Assembly (NCBI GenBank): GCA_950097145.1
Contig: CATNCF010000004.1
Location: 62,001 to 126,000 of the forward strand
DNA from: an uncultured Lachnospiraceae bacterium
GTDB lineage: Bacteria; Bacillota; Clostridia; Lachnospirales; Lachnospiraceae
Direction of reading: 5' to 3'
Length of the DNA: 64,000 nucleotides
A program made the position numbers and the translations under genes. This document shows, piece after piece, positions 10,717 to 14,980 of the stretch (positions are counted from its first letter, which is position 1; each line of letters starts with the position of its first letter). Below the pieces are notes generated by a model. The model did no database searches and had not been told where the DNA came from. It was given only the letters and a program-made list of their open reading frames with translations.

Positions 10717-11325
10717 TCACTGCGCCCCTGTCGTTTCCTGTCCCTTGTCTGTACTTTTTAAATTCAAATATTCCATAATTCCTGATTTTACGGCTTCTGC
10801 AACCTTTTTTTGGTATTCTTCTGTTACCAATAAATCTGCCTCCTGTGAATTGCTTAAAAATCCACATTCCACAATCACCGTAGGAGAAGGGGTTTTTTTC
10901 AACAGGAAATAACTTTCATTTGCTTTTGCCTGTCTGTGATTCTGCGGATCTAACTGCTGAACCAGCGTTTTCTGCAGTGTTTCTGCCAGATCTTTCCCCT
11001 CGTCCGACTGGCCATAATAAAAAACCTGCGCCCCCTTCACCGATTCCTCCGGGTAACTATTTTGATGTATGCTCACGGTAAATACTGGCTTAGCCTCCGT
11101 TATTATCTCGCATCGCCTGCGCATATCCTCTACTTTTTTGTTCTTGGACGACTCCTGGTACAAACCCCCGTCGTCTGTCCTGGTCATGATAATTTTAATT
11201 CCTTCATTTGTAAGTAATTTTTCTAATTCTTTGGCAATTTTTAAGTTAATTTCTTTTTCCTTTGCTTTGTTAATACCGATTTTTCCTGGATCATCCCCTC
11301 CATGTGCCGGATAATATATGCGCAC
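10717..11325 (-). CDS. cwlD: cwlD, 3' part: N-acetylmuramoyl-L-alanine amidase cut by an intervening element
   Basis: This is the C-terminal four-fifths of an amidase_3-family enzyme of CwlD type, which removes peptide side chains so that muramic-delta-lactam can form in spore cortex. From 'HGGDDPGKIG' onward it is a normal amidase: zinc ligands and catalytic residues are visible as 'KEKEINL', 'VSIHQNS' and 'IVECGFLSN'. The first ten residues (11325-11305) come from the intervening element; the genuine cwlD sequence starts at the CAT codon at 11304-11302. The missing N-terminus, with signal anchor and 'IVIDAGHGG', lies at 13855-13994. Joining the two gives 240 codons, the normal CwlD length. 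Confidence 0.85.
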   Translation of the reverse strand: MRIYYPAHGGDDPGKIGINKAKEKEINLKIAKELEKLLTNEGIKIIMTRTDDGGLYQESSKNKKVEDMRRRCEIITEAKPVFTVSIHQNSYPEESVKGAQVFYYGQSDEGKDLAETLQKTLVQQLDPQNHRQAKANESYFLLKKTPSPTVIVECGFLSNSQEADLLVTEEYQKKVAEAVKSGIMEYLNLKSTDKGQETTGAQ

Positions 11326-11525
11326 CTACTATGCTTAGTCTGCATTAAAATTGCAATTCTCTCTTTACCCTGGTATTTTGTATGTGCCGCTATAAAAAGA
11401 TCTTTTATTTTTGAGACATATTCTGACAAAAGTTTTCTTTGGTTTCCTACCCTGTCACTTTCTTCTTTATCTCCATCTTCCCTTGACAGCCTGATAAAAA
11501 CAGCCGCACAAAATAATTTTGCCAT
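11241..11525 (-). pseudogene. truncated large serine recombinase (N-terminal remnant)
   Basis: The first 46 or so residues match the start of a resolvase-type catalytic domain of large serine recombinases: 'AAVFIRLSREDGDKEES' with the nucleophile Ser in 'RLS', then 'GNQRKLLSEYVS'. After about residue 46 similarity stops and the frame runs out of phase into cwlD, ending after 94 residues. The recombinase body and DNA-binding domain are missing. An AGGTGAG ribosome binding site remains. Its place next to one element end fits the recombinase that once moved the element. Confidence 0.7.
11300..11327 (-). repeat. attachment junction (element arm plus cwlD 3' side)
   Basis: On the minus strand the element arm GCGCATATATTATCCG (11309-11324) leads to GCACATGG and then cwlD. 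Paired with the arm at the other end, CGGATATTAATTGCGC, it forms an imperfect inverted repeat (13 of 16 positions) around an 8-base centre, GCACATGG. This is the form of a serine-integrase attP site. Confidence 0.6.
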
Positions 11526-11629
11526 GTTCTCACCTGTCAGACTGCTGCAGATGGGACTTTATAATATGGCGATCAGTTGTTACTTATAAATAATTACCAA
11601 AAAAACACCATAAAATATTTATTTTTTTA

Positions 11630-11658
11630 TTGTATTAGCCAAAAAAGAGTAATATAAT
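11630..11658 (+). promoter_or_regulatory. promoter of the element-borne chemoreceptor
   Basis: A -35 TTGTAT (11630-11635) and a perfect -10 TATAAT (11653-11658) are separated by 17 bases. The chemoreceptor start is 35 bases downstream, with a GGGAGG ribosome binding site at 11681-11686. Confidence 0.75.
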
Positions 11659-11692
11659 AAAAAAAGGAGAAATAGATATCGGGAGGATTATT

Positions 11693-13723
11693 ATGAAAAA
11701 ACAAAAGAAACAAAAAAATTCAAAAAAAAGAATTGCAGATGAAATACTACACCAAATTGGAGGAAGTGTTATTATTGTTTTTCTGCTCATCGCAGTTGTC
11801 TCCATTTTTATGGTTGGGCGGCTGAGCATCTCAGCAAAAGAAACAGAGCTGAGGCAGGAATCCAATGCAGCGGCAAACCAAATCACAGGTTTTCTGGAAC
11901 AGTATACCAAAAGTGTGAAACAGCTTGCCCAAAACCCTGAAATCAAAGAGGTAATGAATGATATAAAACCTGGAGATGATATACGGCAGGCGAAAAAAAT
12001 GGATACCGTAATGAAGAATCTTGTAAATATTGCAAATACTGATGCGGAAAATGTTATGGCCGCATGGATATCAGACCTGGATGCAAGCGCGCTGACACAG
12101 TCCGACGGTTTCACCAGCGAGGAAGGCTGGGATATCACAGGACGGGGATGGTATGGCTGTATTGAAACAAAAGAAACGATTCTGACGGAGCCATATATTG
12201 ATTCTTCCACTGGAAAAATGATTTTAAGCGCCGCCTGCCCAGTGATTGACGATGCCACAGGAGCCGTCCTGGGCGCAGTGGGTATGGATATCTCCCTGGA
12301 CCATATGATCAATATTATGAGTGAATATAAAATCGGCAGTAAGGGATATATACTGCTGATGTCCGAAAACGGAACCTTCTTATATCATCCCCAGAGCGAT
12401 ATCATTCAAAAAAATGTGAAAGATATTGATATTTCCAAAAATGTTATAGACGCTGTTGAATCAAAAAAAGACGAATTCTTCAGATATCAAGCTCAAGGCA
12501 CGACAAAATATGGCTGCCTGCAGCATGCCGGAGAAACCGGGTATATCGTACTCAGCAGCCTTCCCTTACCTGAATATTATGCTACATTAATCGGAATGGT
12601 CGCCGCATTAATGTTAATTTTTGCCTTAGGCATTCTGATGATAACTTTCAGTATCAAGAAAAGCGCTGCACAACTGACAAAACCGATATTAGAGCTGAAC
12701 GAAACCGCCCAGCAGCTCGCAGATGGAAATCTGGATGTGAATATTCAGATTACAAGCTCTAATGAAATTGGTGAATTGGGTGAATCCTTCCAGAAGACAG
12801 TCGCCCGACTAAAAGAATATATTGTATACATAGATGAAACCTCAGAAGTTTTAGCACAAATTGCCGACGGAAGACTTAGTATTGATTTGAAAAATGATTA
12901 TGTAGGTGAATTCCAGAAAATAAAAACTGCTTTACTCAATATTTCTGATTCTATGAATCAAGTCATGATCGGAATTAATGAAAGTTCTGAACGCGTGTCC
13001 GTGGGCGCTTCTGAATTGGCCTCTGCCTCCCAGGTGCTGGCAGAAGGAGCAGAACAGCAGGCAGCATCCATTGAACAGCTTGCGGCAACCACCAACACTG
13101 TGGCTGATCAGGTAGAAAACAGCCGAATAGAGGCTGAAGCATCCGCCGAAGCTACTGCACAGACTGCCTCCATGATTGAAGAAAACCAGGTAAAAATGCA
13201 GCAAATGATGAATGCTATGGATAAAATCCATCAGACCTCCCAGCAAGTGGTTGGAATCATTCAAACCATCGAAGATATTGCATCACAGACAAATCTTCTC
13301 TCATTAAACGCTTCCATAGAAGCCGCCCGTGCCGGTGACGCTGGCAAAGGCTTCGCAGTTGTGGCTGATGAAATTGGTAAACTGGCATTAGAGAGTTCTA
13401 AAGCTGCAAACACTACCAAAGAGCTGATTGAAATTTCCATGGAAGAGATCAATCGAGGAAATACGATTACAGTTGGCGCCATGAATTCACTCAAAGAGTC
13501 TGTAACCGCTGTAGACCATGTGAATGATATGATTCAGAACACTGCCCAGAATGCAGTAGCCCAGGCCGAAAGCATGAAACAGCTTAGAGCAGGAATTGAA
13601 GAAATGGCTCACGGAATACAAGATAACTCCGCGGCCTCCCAGCAAACCTCTGCCACCTCGGAAGAGCTTGCTTCCCAGGCTGAAATATTAAATACCATGG
13701 TACAAAAATTTGAACTTAGTTAA
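11693..13723 (+). CDS. methyl-accepting chemotaxis protein with extracellular Cache sensor
   Basis: A 676-residue chemoreceptor. A first membrane helix (about 20-42) and a second (about 300-322) bracket an extracellular region with the dCache pattern ('GRGWYG', '[20 protein letters not shown]', '[14 protein letters not shown]'). A HAMP segment follows (about 322-380), then the MCP signalling domain with the conserved tip '[26 protein letters not shown]' region near residues 530-555. It is the only intact gene in the element splitting cwlD and is transcribed opposite to cwlD. The ligand is unknown. No chemotaxis or flagellar genes are nearby. Confidence 0.92.
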
Positions 13724-13726
13724 AAT

Positions 13727-13768
13727 AAGCTTTCGGCGATTCAAAATTGCCGGAAGCTTTTATTTTCT
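13727..13768 (+). terminator. terminator after the element-borne chemoreceptor
   Basis: AAGCTTTCGGC pairs with GCCGGAAGCTT (one G-T pair), extended inward by four more pairs and followed by TTTATTTT. It begins three bases after the chemoreceptor stop codon. Confidence 0.8.
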
Positions 13769-13838
13769 GCGCTGCAGCAAACCTCTCTTTATAATATCTG
13801 CTATTTTTCTAACATAAAATTTCCAGAACTGCGTATTT

Positions 13839-13859
13839 GCGCAATTAATATCCGCCATG
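13839..13859 (-). repeat. attachment junction (cwlD 5' side plus element arm)
   Basis: On the minus strand cwlD reads up to the CATGG core (13855-13859) and then into the element arm CGGATATTAATTGCGC (13839-13854), the partner of the inverted arm near 11309-11324. Confidence 0.6.
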
Positions 13860-13994
13860 CCCCGCATCAATCACAATGCAGACTTCTCCAGTCTGGGCTT
13901 TCAGGCTATCCACCATAAAGGCGCTCTCCCTGGCAAAAAGGCATGCTCCCAAAAGCAGCACCACGGCCATAAATACTTCGATCCGTTTTTTCAT
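13845..13994 (-). CDS. cwlD: cwlD, 5' part: signal anchor and first amidase motif
   Basis: This short frame begins MKKRIEVFMAV, has one hydrophobic anchor (residues 7-20) and ends with 'CIVIDAGHGGY' followed by a stop. 'IVIDAGHGG' is the first motif of amidase_3 enzymes, with the first zinc ligand His. The last Tyr and the stop come from the intervening element. I choose the ATG at 13994 because AGGTGAAG lies just upstream. It matches exactly the part missing from the frame at 10717-11304, in the same strand and phase. Confidence 0.8.
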   Translation of the reverse strand: MKKRIEVFMAVVLLLGACLFARESAFMVDSLKAQTGEVCIVIDAGHGGY

Positions 13995-14542: not shown

Positions 14543-14980
14543 CTATACGCCCAGCTTTTCTTTTAAAGCACCTATATACTGTCTGGAAATAATTACTTTT
14601 TCTCCATTTTTCAACAACGCCTCATATCTCCCGCCAAAAGCTGGCGTCAGGCTTTTTATATTTTTCAAATTTAGGATTATGGATTTGGACACACGTACAA
14701 AGTCCCGCCCTGAAAGCTCCTCCTGCAGTTCATAAAGCCTGCTTTTCGTCTGATAGACCTCCGCCCTGCAATAAGCAAACACCTTTTGTTCTACAGATTC
14801 AAAATAAAACACTTCCTCCGGTTCCAAAAAAAACATGCCTCCGTCCCTGTAAACCGTAAGCTTCCCGCTGCCCTGTCTGACTTGATTAATTAATTTCACA
14901 ATCTCGTCATCCAGAAAATTGCATTTAATAATAATTTCCTCTTCTTCCTCTGGACCAATGTCAATAATCGTCACTTTCAT
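14543..14980 (-). CDS. LytTR-family DNA-binding regulator
   Basis: A 145-residue stand-alone LytTR regulator without a receiver domain. The C-terminal LytTR domain (about 45-142) shows 'EPEEVFYFESVEQKVFAYC', 'LYELQEELSGRDFVRVSKSIILNLKNI' and 'NGEKVIISRQYIGALKEKL'. It lies between an ABC transporter and a DUF3021 membrane protein on the same strand, the usual LytTR regulatory system arrangement, and probably controls the same operon. Confidence 0.9.
   Translation of the reverse strand: MKVTIIDIGPEEEEEIIIKCNFLDDEIVKLINQVRQGSGKLTVYRDGGMFFLEPEEVFYFESVEQKVFAYCRAEVYQTKSRLYELQEELSGRDFVRVSKSIILNLKNIKSLTPAFGGRYEALLKNGEKVIISRQYIGALKEKLGV

Follow-up and report, generated by a model that had tools for sequence, protein, structure and literature searches.

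A degenerate recombinase element splits cwlD in a gut Lachnospiraceae bacterium, and its relatives suggest that spore-wall genes may be turned on by DNA excision

Among the elements described within sporulation genes, the closest counterparts of those analyzed here are the skin elements of sigK, where a mother-cell gene is likewise split and rejoined with the help of a large serine recombinase (SpoIVCA with Skr in Bacillus subtilis; CD1231 with CD1234 in C. difficile). According to the passages of the literature on which we draw here and below (cited by PMC number), mother-cell genes host almost all known intervening elements (PMC6957869), and skin has a directionality factor of its own: the gene for Skr overlaps spoIVCA (PMC6957869), and CD1234 is a small directionality factor within the C. 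difficile element (PMC5025042). In B. cereus ATCC10987, gerE harbours gin (GirC/GirX), a non-phage element that also relies on a serine recombinase and whose attachment (att) sites are inverted repeats with a dinucleotide at their centre (PMC5595907). SP-beta in spsM, vfbin in spoVFB, yin in yabG, and phi3T in kamA similarly lie inside sporulation genes that are rejoined, or proposed to be, and are prophages or prophage-like elements of Bacillus and Clostridium, unlike the elements described here (PMC10747680, PMC6957869). The passages of these last two papers that we draw on do not name cwlD, cwlC, or pdaB as the target of an element, and none of the titles and abstract openings that we searched, which cover few subscription journals, describes an element in any of the three genes. 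Here, we analyze an element that splits cwlD in an uncultured Lachnospiraceae bacterium (assembly GCA_950097145.1, contig CATNCF010000004.1, positions 62,001 to 126,000; this whole stretch of 64,000 nucleotides is called the window, and window positions count from its first letter), together with its relatives. What appears to be new is the set of target genes, the use of one recombinase lineage for three spore-wall genes, and the range of carriers, from conjugative elements to inserts with only a recombinase.

The split gene of the window lies on the minus strand. Its N-terminal exon (13860-13994; 45 codons, MKKRIEV...CIVIDAG; aligned with 28 homologues from the genus) and its C-terminal exon (10717-11304; 195 codons from the His of HGGDDPGK..., plus the stop; Amidase_3, TIGR02883) are separated by an intervening element on the same strand that measures 2,555 bp from core to core (11304-13859). 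The break falls at a zinc-site codon, between IVIDAG and HGG, and both junctions carry CATGG, starting at the in-frame His codon. At the 5' junction, attL (13833-13884, minus strand) consists of a cwlD half-site, the core CA (13858-13859), and the element arm CGGATATTAATTGCGCA; at the 3' junction, attR (11279-11328, minus strand) consists of the element arm TGCGCATATATTATCCGGCA, the core CA (11303-11304), and the cwlD C half-site. When the exons are joined at the shared CA, they encode 240 residues with 0 internal stops. A sequence-only reading of this locus had proposed a skin-like element of about 2.56 kb with CATGG at an in-frame CAT codon at both ends and a joined CwlD of 240 codons, and both proposals were borne out; its division into 48 and 192 codons has the right sum, with the break now placed before HGG and the halves thus counted as 45 and 195. 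It had also considered that this copy might have decayed beside a second gene, and we found neither a frame-breaking change in either window exon nor a second intact cwlD in the source assembly (82.8% complete). The best-matching profile of the C half is TIGR02883 (spore_cwlD), at 200.9 bits against a cut-off of 221.55 and with the N half missing; the CwlD of a continuous relative likewise scores below this cut-off (215.9 bits). Amidase_3 matches occur at five sites in the source genome, two of which are the C halves of split genes, and the next-best match there to the window cwlD C-exon is 31% identical among the matches listed.

The recombinase of the window element is reduced to a stub open reading frame (11241-11525, minus strand), as the sequence-only reading had noted in calling it truncated. 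About 115 nucleotides at its 5' end (11407-11521) can be aligned with the intact large serine recombinases of relatives; the remainder has no match in the other loci compared, and a domain scan of the stub found no recombinase domain families. Because the recombinase is a stub, unaided excision in this strain is unlikely: excision of the window element either requires help in trans or has ceased. The window copy is therefore a degenerate relative of the skin-like elements and not a working member, as a working recombinase is missing from it.

To place the window copy among its relatives, which are Lachnospiraceae including Petralouisia muris and Eubacterium sp. 14-2, we compared cwlD across the genus. 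The gene is cut at the identical codon in 6 out of 29 genomes (the window genome, G010, G013, G020, G021, and G027), and because the same split recurs in this way, we regard that of the window as more than a chance event. Uninterrupted cwlD, which the sequence-only reading had expected in relatives, is present in the 23 remaining genomes of the genus and at one locus from another genus. Among the named loci, 5 out of 80 have a split cwlD (the same five relatives) and 75 are continuous, counting as continuous L107, which a script flagged as split only on account of a DSG reading. Both exons lie on a single contig in the window genome and in G010, and an intact large serine recombinase adjoins the split gene in four of the five relatives (G010, G013, G020, and G021). 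An empty site and a filled site can be compared directly in G004 and G027, whose cwlD genes agree at 98.8% of 693 nucleotides: the halves of G027, joined at CA, reproduce the continuous gene of G004 exactly in the stretch compared.

Reconstruction of attP from the two element arms of each insertion gave inverted repeats centred on the dinucleotide at which the gene is rejoined. In 13 pairs from cwlD and the CwlC-like amidase gene described below, the arms match at 11-21 out of 24 positions around the CA of the His codon, and of the 13 shifts compared, this centre alone gives the highest count in 11 out of 13 pairs (it is tied in G084 and in the CwlC-like element of G021). For elements in a PdaB-like deacetylase gene, the centre lies two bases further, at the TG of a Trp codon (20/24 in G081 and 16/24 in G159), and is ambiguous in G134, with 13 and 12 matches at adjacent shifts. 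The sequence CATG reads the same on both strands, and in G081 and G159 the recombinase runs antisense to the gene, so we infer that TG in these two corresponds to CA on the strand of the recombinase. The host attB is mostly GAYGCNGGNCAYGG in cwlD and the CwlC-like gene and falls in the FDAAWG motif of the PdaB-like gene. The 5' half of cwlD in G010 encodes CAG (Gln), and exchange at CA gives back the His; in the other reconstructed elements, the joined frames continue across the joint. On contig C14 of G021 (L135, about 14751-14795), a two-armed attP-like site without an exon lies directly past the intact recombinase, as if two elements stood in tandem in cwlD.

The choice of target was assessed from the recombinases themselves. 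We selected these by similarity to the enzyme of G020 (PF00239, PF07508, and PF13408: resolvase, recombinase, and zinc ribbon), independently of the target gene, and found 25 in 23 out of 395 genomes at E <= 1e-140. The regions of 24 of them hold split exons (9 cwlD, 8 CwlC-like, and 7 PdaB-like), 13 with both exons on the same contig; the PdaB-like exon of G081 matches TIGR02764 best, at 204.6 bits against a cut-off of 237.4, its N part being absent. Counting also the window and G021:C3, both exons share a contig in 15 elements, which range from 1.65 to about 17.4 kb (window 2.56, G010 3.33, G084 1.90, G003 4.24, G013:C10 8.60, G021:C3 11.18, G175 4.64, G157 1.65, G249 7.55, G081 3.33, G134 11.03, and G159 5.76 kb; from exon positions, G068 about 7.3, G078 about 5.0, and G027:C1 about 17.4 kb). 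The recombinases of G020 (in cwlD) and G081 (in the PdaB-like gene) are 86% identical and group together with a support of 0.986, in a tree where several other nodes are weakly supported. This lineage thus appears to switch gene yet keep to spore-wall genes (24 out of 25 examined). The idea of a skin-like element in a germination gene therefore holds for anatomy and joint, with a wider target scope that also takes in the CwlC-like amidase and the PdaB-like deacetylase. The targets here are wall enzymes whereas that of skin is a sigma factor, one lineage serves three genes, and excision is proposed; SigK is unsplit in 9 out of 9 genomes tested, and the source genome keeps it as a single open frame. 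No phage or plasmid record reached 60% identity to the recombinase, and among 10 relatives of it on viral contigs, a target exon was nearby in one only. This contig (L278, IMGVR_UViG_2833105606_000006, 36 kb, classed as viral) encodes a recombinase of 39% identity, next to which lies a PdaB-like exon (1686-1952). Two recombinases from different genera (L200, G016:C26; L207, G109:C96) start near contig ends with a common unrelated stretch, IFQCFQKYRYLTSAF, which suggests an insertion (an intron or insertion sequence) at the same site of the recombinase gene.

The source genome holds a second split gene. On contig C28, the gene of a SPOR-domain amidase is interrupted at the HGG codon, as in cwlD, and has a similar attR; its N-exon was not found in the source assembly. 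A continuous homologue combines Amidase_3 and SPOR domains, which we take to be the architecture of CwlC of B. subtilis. This CwlC-like gene is present in 27 out of 29 genomes of the genus and cut in 6 of the 27 (the window genome, G003, G013, G016, G021, and G027), and four genomes have both it and cwlD cut. The same DAGHGG motif occurs in a third Amidase_3 paralogue, as read in the source-genome copy. Each of the 27 rows listed for the genus shows this paralogue as an open frame of 343-395 amino acids, one of them with an internal TAG in the match; two genomes of the genus have no row. It is unsplit in the listed rows, as against 12 split out of 56 for cwlD and the CwlC-like gene together (Fisher p=0.007, a rough value given that the genomes are related). 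On C28 (G000:C28, L003, 647-1429), an open reading frame resembling the sigma-70-type frame of these elements forms an in-frame fusion with the C-terminal third of a recombinase, apparently through a deletion.

The elements differ widely in cargo. That of the window carries an intact gene on the plus strand (11693-13723) for a methyl-accepting chemotaxis protein of 676 amino acids (dCache_1, HAMP, and MCPsignal), and neither its list of open reading frames nor a domain scan yielded conjugation genes (relaxase, coupling protein, or type IV secretion ATPase). The chemotaxis region has a nucleotide identity of 74.5% over 2.1 kb to the corresponding part of the CwlC-like element of G003, and the protein is 77.9-79.9% identical to the copies of G003, G021, and G013. 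The window element resembles that of G003 (chemotaxis gene, then recombinase), but lies in cwlD and retains only a small part of its recombinase. Receptors of this family lie within the cwlD or CwlC-like element in the window, G003 (L199), and G021 (L263); the copy of G013 (L211) sits outside the element, beside the N-exon. The cwlD element of G013 (C19) contains Relaxase, T4SS-DNA_transf, and TraG P-loop domains and an open reading frame with sigma-70 region 4, and is conjugative by its gene content; it is the sole large element scanned. In this it resembles the integrative and conjugative elements that have large serine recombinases, from which the present family differs in that its sites are spore-wall genes and its small members are too short for conjugation genes. 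It differs from gin in its size range, from 1.65 to >17 kb, and in the conjugation genes of the one large element scanned. At the other extreme, the elements of G084 and G157 consist of scarcely more than the recombinase gene.

Sequence identities indicate that these elements move. At the DNA level, the recombinases of the cwlD elements in G013 and G027 share 95.3% identity over 1,434 nucleotides and the host cwlD genes 73.6%, and within G013 the recombinases of the cwlD and CwlC-like elements are 94.5% identical. Because the recombinases are about 95% identical while the host genes are about 74% identical, these values point to horizontal movement, and a single ancient insertion inherited within the genus is not needed to explain them. 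The CwlC-like element of G021 has no recombinase among its listed open reading frames and the cwlD contig of the same genome has an intact one, so that action in trans between sister elements is conceivable.

Several features may bear on developmental control. Upstream of the continuous CwlC-like gene, a CATANNATA box occurs in 17 out of 18 sequences (all except L233), which we take to resemble a sigma-K or sigma-E -10 box. Upstream of the recombinase, the pattern WWGGAHAAGC was found in 9 out of 19 segments against a shuffled mean of 0.16, a circular comparison given that the pattern was drawn from the same sequences. WWRRACARNY, which we take to be a looser SpoIIID consensus, was found in 10 out of 19 (shuffled mean 2.85, maximum 7 in 200 shuffles), and SpoIIID control of the recombinase is suggestive only. 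A conserved small open reading frame (about 40-65 amino acids by the pattern used; Y-VERE-LxKfSVEELLxRIIKSHL; e.g. L036, L170, and L199) precedes the recombinase in 15 out of 25 regions. Its product, which had no Pfam match in the single copy scanned, could be a recombination directionality factor. The sequence-only reading assumed production confined to the mother cell, which fits, by analogy, the sigma-E control of cwlD in C. difficile (PMC3789822) and B. subtilis (PMC517825). In B. subtilis, cwlC has a role in mother-cell lysis, and the region upstream of ybaN (pdaB) is bound by SpoIIID (PMC517825).

We propose that the element in the window belongs to a family of large-serine-recombinase elements whose insertion sites are mother-cell spore-wall genes, and that this copy has degenerated and become immobile; we assign this reading, with its full mechanism, a probability of roughly 0.72. 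The reading is carried by the anatomy of the split gene, the att sites, the empty site, the intact exons, and the target preference. The recombinase would pair attP, with its inverted arms around CA, with an attB that lies in a catalytic motif of the host gene, and insertion would split the target gene; exchange between attL and attR at the same dinucleotide would rejoin the gene without a scar. That these elements persist is probably due to their targets serving the mother cell alone, a cell that dies: excision there would restore the enzyme, and the spore would retain the element, like skin in sigK. In the window strain, cwlD would be restored only through a related recombinase in trans; otherwise, its spores would have an altered cortex. 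A bolder version, to which we give even odds, is that a large-serine-recombinase lineage has specialised on mother-cell wall genes, making cortex modification and mother-cell lysis dependent on programmed excision, with elements whose recombinase is dead rescued in trans by a sister element in a different spore gene and sigK left uninterrupted. Its targets would be cwlD for the cortex, the CwlC-like gene perhaps for mother-cell lysis, and the PdaB-like deacetylase gene, and its carriers would run from conjugative elements to recombinase-only inserts.

A number of points weigh against the proposed family mechanism. Excision, its timing, its restriction to one cell type, and its directionality are inferred from sequence. 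The survey covers 25 recombinases, with others of 38-40% identity lying outside it; its E cut-off is arbitrary, and up to three candidates were scored per genome. One of the 25 (G147, on a short contig) has no target exon nearby, a single exon was seen for 11 of the 24 that adjoin a target, four are incomplete or at contig ends (G016, G027:C23, G109, and G147), and that of G249 appears frame-broken. The cwlD exons lie on separate contigs in G013, G020, G021, and G027. Median pN/pS values (nonsynonymous relative to synonymous differences) of the cwlD C-exon are 0.142 for split-continuous, 0.153 for continuous-continuous, and 0.123 for split-split pairs, and do not distinguish long-kept split genes from recent insertions. 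In the source genome, the recombinase of the C28 element is a C-terminal remnant, and no intact recombinase of the family was found in the assembly (3.05 Mb in 80 contigs, with about 17% of the genome missing).

The last two points, together with the stub in the window, favor the likeliest alternative, namely that in this strain the insertion has become fixed and cwlD is dead, with the system functional only in relatives. We consider this a little short of an even chance, given that neither window exon has a frame-breaking change, that 17% of the genome is missing, and that the arrangement in G021, with one element lacking a recombinase and an intact enzyme on the cwlD contig, makes action in trans plausible. 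Because no intact family recombinase was found in the strain, to speak of 'programmed' excision would go too far for the window copy. It is unlikely, on the other hand, that the family consists of ordinary selfish elements that use conserved hydrolase motifs as attB, inactivate cwlD, and abolish normal cortex processing without any developmental excision. The relaxase, coupling protein, and TraG-type ATPase of the G013 element, the degenerate recombinases of the window genome, and the apparently recent insertion in G027 are what such elements would lead one to expect; every target found is nevertheless a spore-wall gene, the third Amidase_3 paralogue, with the same motif in its source-genome copy, escapes insertion in its 27 listed rows (against 12/56, p=0.007), both exons remain open, and the source genome retains SigK and Spo0A. 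An assembly artefact or a chimera of unrelated contigs, which might be suspected from a draft in 80 contigs, from relatives several of which are metagenome bins, and from the exons on different contigs in four genomes, is rejected for the family as highly improbable, because in 15 elements from many assemblies a single contig spans both exons, and the att arms that meet at the joint are symmetric.

In the literature as sampled here, programmed excision has so far concerned a handful of genes in Bacillus and pathogen-type Clostridia, mostly with prophage-like elements. The same anatomy is now repeated in gut Lachnospiraceae, in cortex-processing and possibly mother-cell-lysis genes, with one conjugative carrier. 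The system lends itself to testing why mobile elements come to reside in mother-cell genes, as the gene changes and the gene class stays constant in 24 out of 25 cases. Annotation may label split spore-wall genes as truncated in genomes that possibly sporulate normally. Overall, our findings suggest that the split spore-wall genes of this family may be turned on by DNA excision during spore formation.

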